Source: Planktothrix agardhii NIES-204 (GTDB taxonomy: Bacteria; Cyanobacteriota; Cyanobacteriia; Cyanobacteriales; Microcoleaceae). From it: DNA of 64,000 nucleotides. The DNA lies in assembly GCA_003609755.1 (NCBI GenBank), contig AP017991.1, forward strand, positions 2,993,501-3,057,500. Direction: 5' to 3'. Made by a program: the position numbers and the translations under genes. The notes under the pieces are model-generated. The model was not told the DNA's origin and made no database searches. It saw only the letters and a program-made list of their open reading frames with translations. Each line of letters opens with the position of its first letter. Position 1 is the stretch's first letter. Shown here piece after piece: positions 49,708 through 54,761 of this stretch.

Positions 49708-50658
49708 TTAATTTGTAAATAATTTAAGTTCTAAAATTAGTTCCTGGATTAAAGGGCGATAAGTTGTATTATCTAAATGTTCTTGATACCAAGTTTCATA
49801 ATCTTTTAATATGTGTAAATGTTCTTGAATTTGTCTAGCTTCTTCTAGTAATACCCATAAATTATGAGTTGCTCGATTATAAAAACCAATTCCTCCACTA
49901 AGTTTAAGCCCTTCTAAACCACCTTGTTTACAACCTGGACACTGACATTGTTTCAGCTTTTCTTCTTCCTCTTTACTAATAATTCTCCCTCGCCAATTTC
50001 CTAGTTGAGAAATTATGCGATCGCCTGTTCCGGGTAGTTGTATTAAACCCCTGGCTGCACGATTGCGCCACCCACTAGAATCAACCGAATTAATACCTAA
50101 TAATCCAGCAAGATGTAAGGTTGCTGTTCCCCCAATTCCAAAAATATGTAACTTTTGATCTGGAAATTGTTGGCGAAAATGAATTAAATTATCTATAATT
50201 TGTTTATGGGGAATTGCTTTAGATGCTCTTAATAAATTGGGGACAATTCCTCCTAAAGCAATATAAGGTTTATTTGATAAAGCTTTACTTTCAATGATTT
50301 TCTCAATATATTTTTCTAAAAAATTACTAATATGAACAACAGGAACATAATCACCTTGATAATAGCGAAAGTTCATATTCATTGTTTTATTAAAACATTC
50401 TTCTTGTTCCTCTAATGTCATTTTTGGAGTAGGAATAAAATCTTGAGGAATAGGAAACCAATCTGGTTTTGCTTCTCTGACAAATTCAGCATATTCTTTA
50501 ACGGGTACTTCTTGATTATTTTTAACAAAAGAAAAAGCCCCATTATCAAGATAAAATTTCACATTTTTAGGTACACCTAAATGTTCATGTAAACCTTTTT
50601 CCATTGCTTGTTTTCTTTGACTAGGCATTTTATGAAAATCAGCATAAGAAATCATCAC
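49708..50658 (-). CDS. DpdA-like tRNA/DNA-guanine transglycosylase (5' end interrupted)
   Basis: 316 residues as open from GTG 50658. TGT-fold features: first catalytic Asp in YLDNGAFSF (D38), second in INSVDSSGW (D193), and zinc site C238, C240, C243 (CQCPGC) with H265. It is far from housekeeping bacterial TGT and resembles DpdA-type paralogues that put 7-deazaguanines in DNA. The same frame extends upstream through TSPHYLKDLQAV, a TAA at 50692-50694, then GTG 50746-50748 with QIVAGFGLKGIKPRVWD. The family N-terminus is therefore cut by a stop. The GTG start has no clear Shine-Dalgarno and sits in a GCGGTGATG hairpin. Confidence 0.75.
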   Translation of the reverse strand: MMISYADFHKMPSQRKQAMEKGLHEHLGVPKNVKFYLDNGAFSFVKNNQEVPVKEYAEFVREAKPDWFPIPQDFIPTPKMTLEEQEECFNKTMNMNFRYYQGDYVPVVHISNFLEKYIEKIIESKALSNKPYIALGGIVPNLLRASKAIPHKQIIDNLIHFRQQFPDQKLHIFGIGGTATLHLAGLLGINSVDSSGWRNRAARGLIQLPGTGDRIISQLGNWRGRIISKEEEEKLKQCQCPGCKQGGLEGLKLSGGIGFYNRATHNLWVLLEEARQIQEHLHILKDYETWYQEHLDNTTYRPLIQELILELKLFTN

Positions 50659-50690
50659 CGCTTGTAAGTCTTTTAAGTAATGCGGTGATG
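50654..50690. repeat. 9-bp hairpin over the TGT start region
   Basis: CATCACCGC and GCGGTGATG arms enclose about 20 nt and cover the GTG/ATG start codons of the current TGT frame. If transcribed, the stem would hide those starts. Confidence 0.5.
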
Positions 50691-50755
50691 TTTAATCCCA
50701 CACACGGGGTTTTATTCCTTTTAAACCAAAACCAGCTACAATTTGCACTAATTTT

Positions 50756-52402
50756 TTAAACTATTGTTTTAATAAAAGATTGATATTTAGATAATAATTG
50801 CTGTTTAACATTTTGAGTTAACCATTTACCTACATCTTTAGAATAGATATGAGATTGCTGTGTAACAGATGGGATTAAATAAGTAATAGCTTCATCACTC
50901 ATAAAAGAATGATCCTCATCAACTTCAAAACTACAGTATTTTATAGCTGTTAATATCTTAGCAGATATTGTTTCAATACTATCATTATTTTCTGAAAAAA
51001 ATTCATAACGTGGTAACAATTTACTTGGGGTTTTAGAATGTCCAATAAAAAACATATAAGTATGAAAGATTTTACATAACTGTTGATATGGAGCTATATC
51101 AATACGGCTTCCTTCTTCTTTAATCCGTTTAATATAACGATCAAAAAAAGGTTCTAGGTTCTTTAAATTAGCTTTTTCATTCAAAGTTGCTCTAGTTGTA
51201 AATGATCTACGAATTAAACAAGTAGAAATAGCTTTTTTTAACCCATTTTCAAAACAATCTGGAGAAGCTAATAGTAAAGTCATTGCTTGTCCATCTGTTA
51301 GCGTATAGTTTCCTATTTCCCAGTTTTCATCTATATTTTTAGCAATATACCAGTCTAAAACAGCACTATATACCTTTAAACGAACATTTTTGGAAACTCC
51401 ACAATAAATACGGTTAAAGTCTCTAGCAGAATTTAGACATTTTAAGAGTTCTTGAATTGCTTTTTGTGTAAATTTCCCACGTTCATTATTAATGATAAAA
51501 TTATCTAAATAAGCATCTTGAGGAAATAAACTGCCATCTCTAAGAATAATATCAGGACAATCTCTACCAGCGTTTAATAAATATTCATGATCAAAAATGT
51601 ATTGTCCCACATCCATCGCTGAAGCAGTACAACGGTGAAAATCTTCAGGCTCTAATTCATCTTGATAAGATGGATCAATTAACATCCATTTGAGTAACTC
51701 TTGATTAGGTTCTGGATTAAATCTACCCTGATCAAAAATAGCTTTGCCATTGTTTACTCTAACAATTGCACCAGCAGCATTATTTAATAAAAAAGGAACA
51801 GTGCGATTGAAAAAACGAGCCGGATAAGGTACTGAACTACGATGTTGACTAACATCTGAAGAACCGATTAAAAAATTGCCATTATTCCATAAACTATCAT
51901 CACTTTCAATGAAATTAAGAAAATATTTACCGACAATATGACTAGCAAGATGTTCTTTAATTAAGTCTTCATTTAATTCTATTCTCCACTTACGGCTTCC
52001 TTTTGCTGGTGGATTAATATTTACTTGTTCCTTTGTCATTCCAAAACCACGAATAGCAACTTGTTTTAGTAATTTTGCTAAACGTTCTGATTGTTCTGCA
52101 TTTTCTCTTATTTGTTCTTGTAAATCCTTAAAAAATTCAAGATACAATTCTCTTGGATCTTTTTGTAGTAAATCCTCTCTTGCTCTTTTAATAGTTGTTT
52201 CCCACTGATCTTGGGCTTTAACTAATTTAGTCATATACTCAAGAGTTTCTGCTAATGGATCGTGATTTTTAAAAGTATCATAACTATTGACTTGATCACG
52301 ATCTAAAATTTCAGAATTTTCTGGATTAAAAATGTCGTCAAAATTCATTTCTAGTTGTCTATAAGGTGAGTGAGTATCATTAATTTTTTTCTTGCGAGGC
52401 AT
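50756..52402 (-). CDS. NurA-domain nuclease
   Basis: 548 residues. The N-terminal third is helical and charged. The NurA core runs from about 175 to 480. The metal-binding Asp is in IGSSDVSQHRSS (near 183), the second motif is LRDGSLFP (near 289) and the third is CGVSKNV (near 335). NurA is a 5'-3' exonuclease/endonuclease that works with the HerA translocase in DNA end resection and several defence systems. It starts one base after the HerA fragment stop and ends 7 bp before the original TGT start, so all belong to one operon. Confidence 0.75.
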   Translation of the reverse strand: MPRKKKINDTHSPYRQLEMNFDDIFNPENSEILDRDQVNSYDTFKNHDPLAETLEYMTKLVKAQDQWETTIKRAREDLLQKDPRELYLEFFKDLQEQIRENAEQSERLAKLLKQVAIRGFGMTKEQVNINPPAKGSRKWRIELNEDLIKEHLASHIVGKYFLNFIESDDSLWNNGNFLIGSSDVSQHRSSVPYPARFFNRTVPFLLNNAAGAIVRVNNGKAIFDQGRFNPEPNQELLKWMLIDPSYQDELEPEDFHRCTASAMDVGQYIFDHEYLLNAGRDCPDIILRDGSLFPQDAYLDNFIINNERGKFTQKAIQELLKCLNSARDFNRIYCGVSKNVRLKVYSAVLDWYIAKNIDENWEIGNYTLTDGQAMTLLLASPDCFENGLKKAISTCLIRRSFTTRATLNEKANLKNLEPFFDRYIKRIKEEGSRIDIAPYQQLCKIFHTYMFFIGHSKTPSKLLPRYEFFSENNDSIETISAKILTAIKYCSFEVDEDHSFMSDEAITYLIPSVTQQSHIYSKDVGKWLTQNVKQQLLSKYQSFIKTIV

Positions 52403-52403
52403 T

Positions 52404-52658
52404 TTAGTTATCCTTTTGTTTTAATTCATTAATTTTATCAATCCATTTATCTTGCATTTCTCCAAAAATATCAGGAGTTTTACCACCTTCTGAATCTTCA
52501 GTTGTGCGGGTTCTAATTTTAACTGGAATTGTATGTTTAATACTTTCATAAGTACCAGAAATTAAACAAGTTCCCTGGGGCATTTTAGGTAAAGCTCTTA
52601 ACATTTCATCCGTAGCATCTGATTTAACTCCCTTAATAGCATCTATCAGTTTTAACAC
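52404..52658 (-). pseudogene. HerA C-terminal fragment
   Basis: 84 residues. DEMLRALPKMPQGTCLISGT, then HTIPVKIRTRTT and GGKTPDIF are the C-terminal strands of HerA-type hexameric helicases (the part after the ATPase core). It has a GTG start overlapping the previous gene by 26 bp in another frame. Walker A, Walker B and the arginine finger are absent. Together with the N-terminal piece upstream it shows a HerA gene that lost about 1.2 kb from its middle. Confidence 0.65.
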
Positions 52659-53157
52659 CTCCTACTGTTTCCCCTAAAAATAAACCATCCGATTGTTTTT
52701 TCTCTATTCCTAAAACCTTGACTACTTCACTAGAGTCAGCAATAAAAACCTCAGCACCAGAATTAGGTAAATTTTGAGGTGATCTAATTTCTTTTCCAAT
52801 AATTTCTTCTATTAAATCAGCTTCAATTAGTCTATAAATATCTGTACTATGTTCTTCTGGCATATCGGGAGTAGAAAGTGCTAAGTTATCACTAACTGTT
52901 ACACCAGCTACACTTTTATTTGGGTTACTTTCATACTTCTGATCATAATTAGGGATCAACTGATAAGCAGGTATCAGTCCAAACTTAGCAGATAAAATAA
53001 AAATATCTAAATAATCAGTTGTTTGTTCCTGTAAAAACTTTCGTACAACTCGAAAAGCCACGCCATTGTAACGTTCAATTGCTGGTAAAAATTCTAGTTG
53101 TGAATATTTAGACTTAGAACAATTGATAATTAATAAATCTTTTAAGTAATTAACCAT
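52633..53157 (-). CDS. DUF6884/YaaA-like domain joined to a HerA N-terminal segment
   Basis: 174 residues. The first about 80 (LLIINCSKSKYSQLEFLPAI, FILSAKFGLIPAYQLIPNYD) match the DUF6884/YaaA-like fold seen in several DNA-modification loci. From about 95 the sequence reads like the HAS-barrel start of HerA (AEVFIADSSEVVKVLGIEKK, SDGLFLGETVGG). The two parts join without a domain border, suggesting a deletion that fused two genes in frame. The DUF6884 part ends earlier than usual. Confidence 0.6.
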   Translation of the reverse strand: MVNYLKDLLIINCSKSKYSQLEFLPAIERYNGVAFRVVRKFLQEQTTDYLDIFILSAKFGLIPAYQLIPNYDQKYESNPNKSVAGVTVSDNLALSTPDMPEEHSTDIYRLIEADLIEEIIGKEIRSPQNLPNSGAEVFIADSSEVVKVLGIEKKQSDGLFLGETVGGVKTDRCY

Positions 53158-53263: not shown

Positions 53264-53692
53264 TTAAAAATTTTCTCCGTCGCCAAAAATTAAATCTATT
53301 ATCTGATTTTTATTCTTTCGATAAACGAGAAAATCGCTATCTAACGTTAATACACAACTACCGGAAATTAACTCACTCATTCTGACTAAACAAGCATCTG
53401 CTAAAGACATCGGCACATTTTGATACCGTTTCATCAATTCTCTTATCGCTTCGCTGTCATCATTCAGTTGAAAAGGAATTGAAATGATTTTTTGACTGAT
53501 TAAATTCATCACTGCTTCCTCACCTTCATAGACATCTTGCAGTAGAAAACAAGCCTCAGTTATTACCGCTTCACAAGTTAATAAAGGCAGTTCAATCTTT
53601 TTCCATTGTTCCTTTGTCCAGGGATGTAGTTTTTCTCTTTTATTAATAAATGTCACTAACACCCCTGTATCTAGTAATATGTTTCTTTTCAT
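53264..53692 (-). CDS. vapC: PIN-domain toxin (VapC-like)
   Basis: 142 residues. PIN acidic residues: D8 (NILLDTGVLVTF), Glu in AVITEACFLL, Asp in MSLADACLVRM and Asp in LTLDSDFLVY. Predicted RNase. It overlaps its antitoxin gene by 4 bp (ATGA). It precedes the DUF6884-HerA-NurA-TGT operon by about 100 bp on the same strand. Confidence 0.9.
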   Translation of the reverse strand: MKRNILLDTGVLVTFINKREKLHPWTKEQWKKIELPLLTCEAVITEACFLLQDVYEGEEAVMNLISQKIISIPFQLNDDSEAIRELMKRYQNVPMSLADACLVRMSELISGSCVLTLDSDFLVYRKNKNQIIDLIFGDGENF

Positions 53693-53940
53693 TTTTTACC
53701 CATACCTTTTAAATATTCTTTATTTGTCCCCAAATCACCAGGGCCAAAGTCTACACATCCCGCCCACTCTTTCGCTGCTTCATAAGCAGAAATTGGTTGT
53801 TTTTCCTCTACCTGTTCCTCCTGCTTTTGCGCTTTATATCGCAAAAATTCAATAAATTCTAAAACTGCCTCCTGTTGTTGTACTGTTAGAGTTTCGATGT
53901 TCTCTAAAATTACATCTTTTTTATTGATAGCCAAAATCAT
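53689..53940 (-). CDS. vapB: VapB-type antitoxin (DUF2281-like)
   Basis: 83 residues. MILAINKKDVILENIETLTV, then QQQEAVLEFIEFLRYKA is the DUF2281 helical motif. A flexible tail (EAAKEWAGCVDFGPGDLGTN) is expected to fill the PIN active site. GAGGA precedes the ATG on the minus strand. Confidence 0.85.
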   Translation of the reverse strand: MILAINKKDVILENIETLTVQQQEAVLEFIEFLRYKAQKQEEQVEEKQPISAYEAAKEWAGCVDFGPGDLGTNKEYLKGMGKK

Positions 53941-54257: not shown

Positions 54258-54645
54258 GGGGCATTACTGGTTTCGACAGGGTAAGGAAAGCTACCAAGTG
54301 ATGCAGGCCGAGAGTGAGTCAACTCTCGTAAATCAAGACTCAAACAAAAACGTAACTGCGAACAACATCGTTCCTTTTGCTCGTAAATCAGCCGCTGTTG
54401 CTGCCTAAACACCTCTAGTAGGTTCGAGCGTCTACTGTTTGACTCCGTTAAGGACAATAGACAAACCCCCAACGGATGCTCTAACTTAGTTTCTTTGGTT
54501 GAAAAGTTAGTTAAGATTTAACCATTGCATCCCACCCTTCGGGATAATGAGGGGTTCCCGCCTTGAGGATTAGAAGGGCTAAGTCTGTGAATGAGCGAGG
54601 AGTAAATACTTGTTCTGGACATGGGTTCGATTCCCATATGCTCCA
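54258..54645 (+). ncRNA. ssrA: Transfer-messenger RNA (tmRNA)
   Basis: Rescues stalled ribosomes. The 5' end GGGGCATTACTGGTTTCGAC and 3' end GGTTCGATTCCCATATGCTCC A form the tRNA-like domain. The tag frame begins at GCG 54358 and encodes ANNIVPFARKSAAVAA before TAA at 54406-54408. The typical cyanobacterial tag differs at a couple of positions. One-piece form, CCA not encoded. Minus-strand frames over it are spurious. Confidence 0.97.
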
Positions 54646-54761
54646 TTCCCCTATACTCTTAAAACCACTTTGGAATTTTCCGAGGTGGTTTTTAGTTGAG
54701 GTTATATGAAATCTAGTTATAGATGATCCCCCTAACCCCCCTTTTTAAGGGGGGAATCCTA

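Follow-up and report, generated by a model that had tools for sequence, protein, structure and literature searches.

The window analysed here, a stretch of 64,000 nucleotides (nt) from Planktothrix agardhii NIES-204 (contig AP017991.1, positions 2,993,501-3,057,500 of the forward strand), carries on its minus strand, from position 53157 down to 49708, the remains of one operon. Its units correspond, in order, to a DUF6884 protein, pieces of a HerA translocase, a NurA-like nuclease and an enzyme with the fold of tRNA-guanine transglycosylases (TGTs). We lean, with slightly more confidence than doubt, towards the view that the window holds what decay has left of a compact defence operon of cyanobacteria, in which a Dpd-like pair, predicted to mark DNA with a 7-deazaguanine, is coupled to interchangeable HerA-NurA nucleases. 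A bolder version, plausible but held with rather more doubt than confidence, would be that of a plug-in immune system, in which a constant DUF6884 and TGT pair lays down the self-mark, pump-and-cut modules (two HerA-NurA pairs and one set made of a HerA-like gene and SbcCD) are swapped at exact gene borders, and the marking enzyme has been taken by a phage as camouflage. An earlier description made from the DNA letters (hereafter the sequence-only reading) had proposed that the ancestral operon combined base modification with a translocase-nuclease, and this combination is supported both by homology and by the re-pairing of the outer genes with different HerA-NurA modules.

Recurrence and variants of the operon in cyanobacteria

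The scan of genome contigs gave one relative, Oscillatoriales USR001 (G026). In the genome samples, which overlap, include the window genome and are counted separately for each search, the NurA-like protein of the window type (variant I) was found in 3/59 relatives, 4/386 genomes of the phylum and 3/388 of the class, and the TGT in 5/386 genomes of the phylum and 12/388 of the order, the window genome being counted in both. The total amounts to 14 genomes, one plasmid and one viral contig, i.e. 16 loci.

Seven other cyanobacterial genomes, belonging to four taxonomic families (USR001/G026, G030, G254, G134, G455, G671 and G741), carry an intact variant I operon with the same gene order as the window; the co-occurrence of the four protein families elsewhere, on which the sequence-only reading depended, is thus established. 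As G134 and G455 have common flanks, and likewise G254 and G741, these seven operons represent at most five independent placements. Three other genomes (G684, G729 and G783) carry an intact variant II, in which the DUF6884 gene comes first and the TGT gene last but bracket a different NurA-HerA pair, whose inner order is reversed relative to variant I. Successive genes of the intact operons of both variants are separated by -4 to 32 bases. The six remaining loci are a further variant carried by an Aulosira plasmid, the decayed copies of the window, G001 and G884, the locus of G166, where the TGT gene lies at the contig start and its upstream neighbours beyond the contig, and the viral contig, which carries the TGT alone. 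A DUF6884 relative is found beside the TGT in 14 of the 16 loci, the exceptions being G166 and the viral contig. No variant I NurA was found in the viral contigs, plasmids and phages searched.

These data bear on the simplest alternative, i.e. that the genes are chance neighbours or that the TGT/DUF6884 pair and the nuclease are two unrelated pieces of cargo. It would fit the fossil state of the window copy and the presence of the TGT alone in the viral contig. However, the same order recurs in seven genomes of four families, and the outer pair surrounds a second NurA-HerA pair in three more. Because of this intact recurrence, the gene order goes beyond chance and chance clustering is already refuted as regards gene order, so that this alternative as a whole appears extremely improbable.

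Decay of the window copy

The place and strand of the four units had been correctly read from the letters alone. Proteins of the intact relative USR001, used as tblastn queries against the window, delimit what is left of each gene, all on the minus strand. The DUF6884 (YaaA/DpdC-like) fragment (52936..53142) corresponds to residues 6-74 of the 247-residue intact relative and is now fused to a HerA fragment within the open reading frame (ORF) 52633-53157. This first HerA fragment (52645..52959) corresponds to residues 52-156 of 513, with 80% identity, and matches the PADLOC HerA model with E=0.0013, while the second, a separate ORF of 84 amino acids (52404..52658), corresponds to residues 434-512 of 513, with 91% identity. 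Residues 157-433 of HerA, which include the Walker A and Walker B motifs according to the alignment, are gone from the window copy. Judging from this residue coverage, two deletions took the end of the DUF6884 gene, the start of the HerA gene and the HerA ATPase core.

The gene of the NurA-like nuclease (50756..52402), which is open and encodes a full-length protein of 548 amino acids with 83% identity to that of USR001 over 550 amino acids, is the only one of the four that is whole. The TGT gene (49708..50748), recognized by tblastn, motifs and trees, is matched over residues 1-341 of 352, with 86% identity, and contains one in-frame TAA near its 5' end. The sequence-only reading needs one correction here: the listed ORF covers 49708-50658 only, whereas homology begins at 50748, and the 97-base gap ahead of this ORF is the TGT's own 5' part, split off by the TAA. 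The ratios of nonsynonymous to synonymous substitutions (dN/dS) between the window copy and three relatives are low for both the NurA-like gene (0.09-0.16) and the TGT gene (0.09-0.11), synonymous sites being near saturation in the most distant pair, and they therefore suggest that the decay is recent.

The outer proteins and the two halves of DpdA

The window TGT matches PF01702 with E=1.5e-5 and 24.7 bits, just below the cut-off of 26.3. As claimed by the sequence-only reading, both catalytic Asp (motifs YLDNGAF and VDSSGW) and the CxCxxC...H zinc site are present, in the window protein as in those of 10/10 intact operons, and these positions align with those of the archaeosine TGT 1iq8 and of the DNA-guanine transglycosylase 7ui4. 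In the trees, the operon TGTs group with DpdA-type TGTs (and, in the first tree, also with viral ones), apart from the queuine, archaeosine and small haloarchaeal TGTs. The support for this split is 96/91 in the first tree, which left out two rows, the long haloarchaeal TGTs, and 100/99 in the second, which was built without six rows on account of their length or long branches (both long haloarchaeal TGTs, the cyanobacterial TGT-like protein of L051, STSV1, phage 9g and one short DpdA paralogue). Approximately unbiased (AU) tests rejected the grouping of the operon TGTs with queuine enzymes (p=0.016), with queuine and archaeosine enzymes together (p=0.0065) and with archaeosine enzymes (p=0.0025); the grouping with DpdA was not rejected (p=0.21), which does not demonstrate that clade.

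The sequence-only reading would have had to be given up if the protein had grouped with the queuine tRNA enzymes, which is not what the AU test or the profile comparisons indicate (E=0.055 with queuine TGT versus 5e-9 with DpdA). Identity with the housekeeping queuine enzyme is ruled out by the same AU result, by a profile probability of 1% and by the presence in the window genome of a separate housekeeping TGT scoring 509 bits.

The window DUF6884 protein matches PF21818 (E=2.7e-8, 34.5 bits for a cut-off of 30), and this family is over cut-off in 4/4 operon DUF6884 proteins scanned. DUF6884 has been named as a domain of DpdC (PMC11888242). Matches to the PADLOC DpdC models cover no more than a part of the protein (at best E=1.3e-6 for the window, 3e-4 for USR001 and 3.1e-4 for G134) and are weaker than that to the PADLOC candidate model PDC-M57A (E=5.6e-7 for the window). 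DpdA itself is found over the NCBIfam cut-off in 5/194 genomes of the phylum (L046-L050), in frames of about 700 residues. In profile comparisons, the DUF6884 protein matches the N-terminal part of this cyanobacterial DpdA (96.5%, E=1e-9) and the TGT its C-terminal part (96%). The other controls are low: DUF6884 versus queuine TGT 0.2%, DUF6884 versus operon TGT 0.9%, first part of DpdA versus operon TGT 5.5%. From these matches we conclude that a single DpdA-type protein has its two halves represented by the two outer proteins of the operon. In 4/5 of the DpdA loci, a shorter TGT-like gene adjoins the DpdA gene (from a database match for L047, by eye for the rest).

The inner proteins, HerA and NurA

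The PF01935 family is over cut-off in 5/5 intact HerA proteins scanned, with E values from 4.2e-23 to 6.3e-28, the two variant I proteins among them giving 4.2e-23 and 3.5e-24. Walker A is found in the HerA of 10/10 intact operons, and Walker B of the variant I proteins reads VVDEAH or VIDEAH in the alignment. The variant I HerA profile matches seven distinct solved sequences, including 8wiv and 8xau, which have an anti-phage role.

The DGS and GVSK motifs that had been noticed in the window NurA-like protein are indeed present, and its match to PF09376 (E=0.0053, 16.7 bits) lies under the cut-off of 21. The NurA of variant II is over this cut-off in 3/3 cases (E=9.5e-11, 9.4e-9 and 2.9e-9). 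What justifies the NurA name for the variant I protein is the pair of motifs, the position next to HerA and the presence of an unquestionable NurA in the same slot of variant II; the G671 relative, although still under cut-off, adds some support.

Exchange of the inner module

The HerA proteins of the two variants are only 21-27% identical in matched stretches. Nevertheless, a variant II and a variant I operon occur within the same genus, in G684 and G254, and comparison of their loci (L088 versus L016) locates the borders of the exchange. The flank and the DUF6884 gene are 93.2% identical at the nucleotide level up to the stop codon of the latter, the inner genes have no nucleotide match, and the two loci align again, with 96.3% identity, beginning one base ahead of the TGT start codon. 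On the TGT tree, a single clade of all variant II TGTs is rejected (AU p=7.8e-38), and supported branches force at least three changes of the variant II label, whose clustering is no better than in shuffles (500/500 as low). This scatter of variant II implies that the inner module has been exchanged more than once.

Other inner contents are found. On the Aulosira plasmid (L011:4586-16062), a DUF6884 relative (42%) and a TGT (65%) enclose eight other genes, including those of a weak HerA match (under cut-off), of SbcD-like, SbcC-like and sigma-factor-like proteins and of an IrrE-type peptidase. In G884, a piece of an SbcC similar to that of Aulosira lies between broken DUF6884 and TGT genes. 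A 352-residue Aulosira protein suspected by eye to be a NurA has no Pfam NurA match and a profile probability of 1.3%, and this candidate was dropped. The Aulosira SbcC-like protein also matches the PADLOC LmuB model (E=7.9e-37).

As HerA-NurA is a known end-processing complex and as the Aulosira variant has SbcCD-like genes, the operon might be devoted to DNA repair or recombination without any defence function, HerA-NurA resecting ends while the TGT and DUF6884 proteins repair or mark damaged guanine. However, the sparse distribution of the TGT described above is typical of conflict systems, as are the decay in 3/14 genomes, the carriage by a plasmid and by a viral contig and the exchange of modules. 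Furthermore, PF09376 matches over cut-off occur in 71/146 genomes and, in the window genome, at another place than the operon, and a 2026 study of archaeal HerA-NurA casts doubt on its role in resection (PMC12977600). A role in repair is thus improbable.

Evidence against a DNA-marking operon and the case for an RNA substrate

Several results weigh against the preferred reading of a marking pair coupled to exchangeable nucleases. The window copy cannot be active as a whole. Concerning the TGT, the tree has long deep branches, for which the program issued a warning of long-branch joins, and the AU tests were run after the first tree was known; due to these long branches and to the fact that the 1iq8 row is a fragment, its placement is a supported lead rather than a proof. 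The window TGT reaches 31.9 bits on the DpdA model NF041059, whose cut-off is 200 bits, and none of the 11 operon genomes has a protein over this cut-off. G030 is the only genome in which the operon's own TGT attains E<=0.001 on the model; in G729, two other proteins encoded elsewhere match it under the cut-off (74 and 60 bits). As the TGT fails the DpdA cut-off, membership in Dpd proper is rejected.

Furthermore, DpdB, which has been described as the ATPase of insertion, possibly dispensable in some clusters (PMC12839542), is not among the four operon genes. PF14072 (DndB/DpdB-type) is found elsewhere in 9/11 operon genomes but is absent from G134 and G455, which carry intact operons, so that the operon is not always accompanied by DpdB. 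Finally, the NurA-like proteins of variant I score poorly. In the five of eight loci scanned, all remain under 21 bits on PF09376: besides the window, G030 gives 13.8 (E=0.041) and G671 19.7 (E=6.4e-4), and USR001 and G455 have no match up to E=0.1. Profile comparisons of the variant I protein with a local profile of 20 cyanobacterial NurA (0.3-0.4%, not significant) and with the variant II NurA (0.2%) do not relate them.

A further adverse result is that the best match of the TGT profile among solved structures is a tRNA enzyme, the archaeosine TGT 1iq8 (E=4.2e-9), ahead of the DNA-guanine transglycosylase 7ui4 (E=9.3e-4), while queuine TGTs of solved structure are not matched up to E=0.1. 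This order is what would be expected if the enzyme acted on RNA, for example on a tRNA during infection; the operon would then serve a stress response or abortive infection through RNA modification, and HerA-NurA would be an effector in its own right. However, the tree tests reject a grouping with either the archaeosine or the queuine tRNA enzymes, its profile matches DpdA much more strongly than queuine TGT, and DNA-processing partners recur beside the enzyme. We therefore consider an RNA target unlikely.

Proposed mode of action and the viral TGT

According to the preferred reading, the operon would work like a restriction-modification system with an unusual mark, its outer genes encoding the marking pair. 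The TGT would swap guanine in host DNA for a 7-deazaguanine, probably preQ0 from the host queuosine pathway. QueC, which makes preQ0, is present in all six genomes tested, namely five that carry an intact or decayed operon and G295, which has none. The DUF6884 protein may act as DpdC does, either processing the inserted base to an amide or assisting its insertion. The HerA ring translocase and the NurA-type nuclease would then pump and degrade unmarked DNA, such as that of phages, self and non-self being told apart by the mark. Another HerA-NurA pair, or a HerA-like gene with SbcCD-like genes, could replace the inner module while the marking pair stays. A related logic has been proposed for HerA/FtsK systems with a TGT (PMC12839542).

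A stand-alone TGT belonging to the operon clade is found in a viral contig (L010:9100-10918) that also encodes a major head protein and a terminase. It nests with those of G134 and G455 (100/100 in the first tree, 98/100 in the second) and lies between two 175-nt direct repeats that are 99% alike, with two PAPS-reductase-like genes and several genes without Pfam match upstream. A self-mark stolen by a phage might look like this. The neighbouring genes suggested type IV CRISPR by eye, but this is not claimed, since Pfam gave two PAPS-reductase matches only among nine proteins.

The mark might conversely be put on the invader: the TGT and DUF6884 proteins would alter guanines of phage DNA as it enters or replicates, and either HerA-NurA would degrade the altered DNA or the alteration itself would block the phage. 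Such a scheme needs no separate protection gene, and exchangeable inner modules would suit a generic nuclease that follows the mark. However, a phage that carries a TGT of the same clade is better explained by camouflage of its own DNA than by self-destruction, and published relatives of the pair are read as protective marks on self or phage DNA (PMC6884629, PMC12839542), so that we give little credence to a mark aimed at the invader.

Relationships with known systems

The sequence-only reading knew of no described system with exactly this set of genes, which agrees with the literature search as far as open-licence papers reach: the four-gene set is undescribed in those searched, and an earlier mention elsewhere is possible. 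Among published systems, Dpd and BREX-related capture (BRC; PMC12839542) come closest, with a partial likeness to the operon. As in Dpd (dpdA-K), the operon has a TGT-fold transglycosylase with aligned Asp and zinc site, a DUF6884/DpdC-like partner and QueC in the host, and the DpdA of L046-L050 has both parts in one protein. It differs from Dpd in having a TGT far under the DpdA cut-off, no DpdB gene, HerA and NurA-like genes in the middle instead of dpdD-K, and only four genes in all. The PADLOC matches listed for those middle genes that were scanned include none of the Dpd restriction proteins (dpdD-K), a search that did not extend to the rest of the genomes.

BRC, which has HerA/FtsK, a TGT and GNAT, shares with the operon a HerA/FtsK translocase accompanied by a TGT proposed to mark self DNA, but it is built on PglZ, DUF6079, a STAND NTPase and DUF4007 (PMC12839542), none of which belongs to the four operon genes. 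Of the operon genes scanned with Pfam, none likewise gave a match to PglZ, DUF6079, STAND NTPase or DUF4007, the flanks having been read as ORFs only. In BRC, its authors found homologues of neither DpdB nor DpdC, and the accessible sections of their paper leave NurA unmentioned (PMC12839542), whereas the operon has a DpdC-like gene. HerA-NurA end-processing complexes and the anti-phage complexes of HerA with a nuclease (HerA-Sir2, HerA-DUF4297) also associate a ring ATPase with a partner nuclease, but in the operon this pair is bracketed by a putative base-modifying pair and its variant I NurA is very divergent.

More distant likenesses are found in clusters of haloarchaeal plasmids with two TGTs (L012-L014). 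Their small TGT is about 24% identical to that of the operon, and L012 encodes nearby a 233-residue DUF6884-like protein that is just over the PF21818 cut-off and gives a profile match of 95% (E=1.8e-8). These clusters differ by a second, larger TGT and a BrxC/D-like ATPase, and their small TGT lies on the tRNA side of the tree; neither HerA nor NurA was found in the five L012 proteins scanned. In L012 (8111-15761), the large and small TGTs, the DUF6884-like protein and the BrxC/D-like ATPase lie beside a csa3 gene and the gene of a queuosine precursor transporter.

If the preferred reading is true, the operon would be a minimal, four-gene addition to the few systems in which DNA is marked with 7-deazaguanines, without the DpdB ATPase in the operon, and would couple such marking to HerA-NurA, whose biological role is disputed. 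That congeners with the same outer pair differ in everything from the DUF6884 stop codon to the beginning of the TGT gene indicates, with unusual directness, that marking can be separated from cutting, and it raises the question of which nuclease modules tolerate the same mark. The same-clade TGT standing alone in a viral contig predicts counter-defence.

Genomic site of the operon in Planktothrix

The operon is flanked on one side by a radical-SAM-like gene (by eye) and on the other by a VapBC-like pair (window 53264-53940; PIN over the Pfam cut-off, DUF2281-like under it) next to the gene of the transfer-messenger RNA (window 54258-54648). The flank gene was found in 8/8 congeneric or conspecific genomes searched, and the site itself was read in four of them. 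Both flanks are retained in G295, of the same species, and in two congeners, G006 and G007, with other content between them and no tblastn match to the four proteins; by eye, contents of the spot in congeners include a transposase, an AbrB-like gene and an antiporter-like gene. The neighbourhood of the operon is a variable spot in the genus.

In the congener G003 (L043:2565-2909), a DUF6884 remnant is fused to the PIN-domain frame, as if the same operon had decayed further there. In another congener, G001 (L093:10106-13223), a truncated DUF6884 gene and a start-less TGT gene surround the gene of a 251-residue protein without Pfam match. The G001 locus adjoins XisH- and XisI-like genes (by eye).

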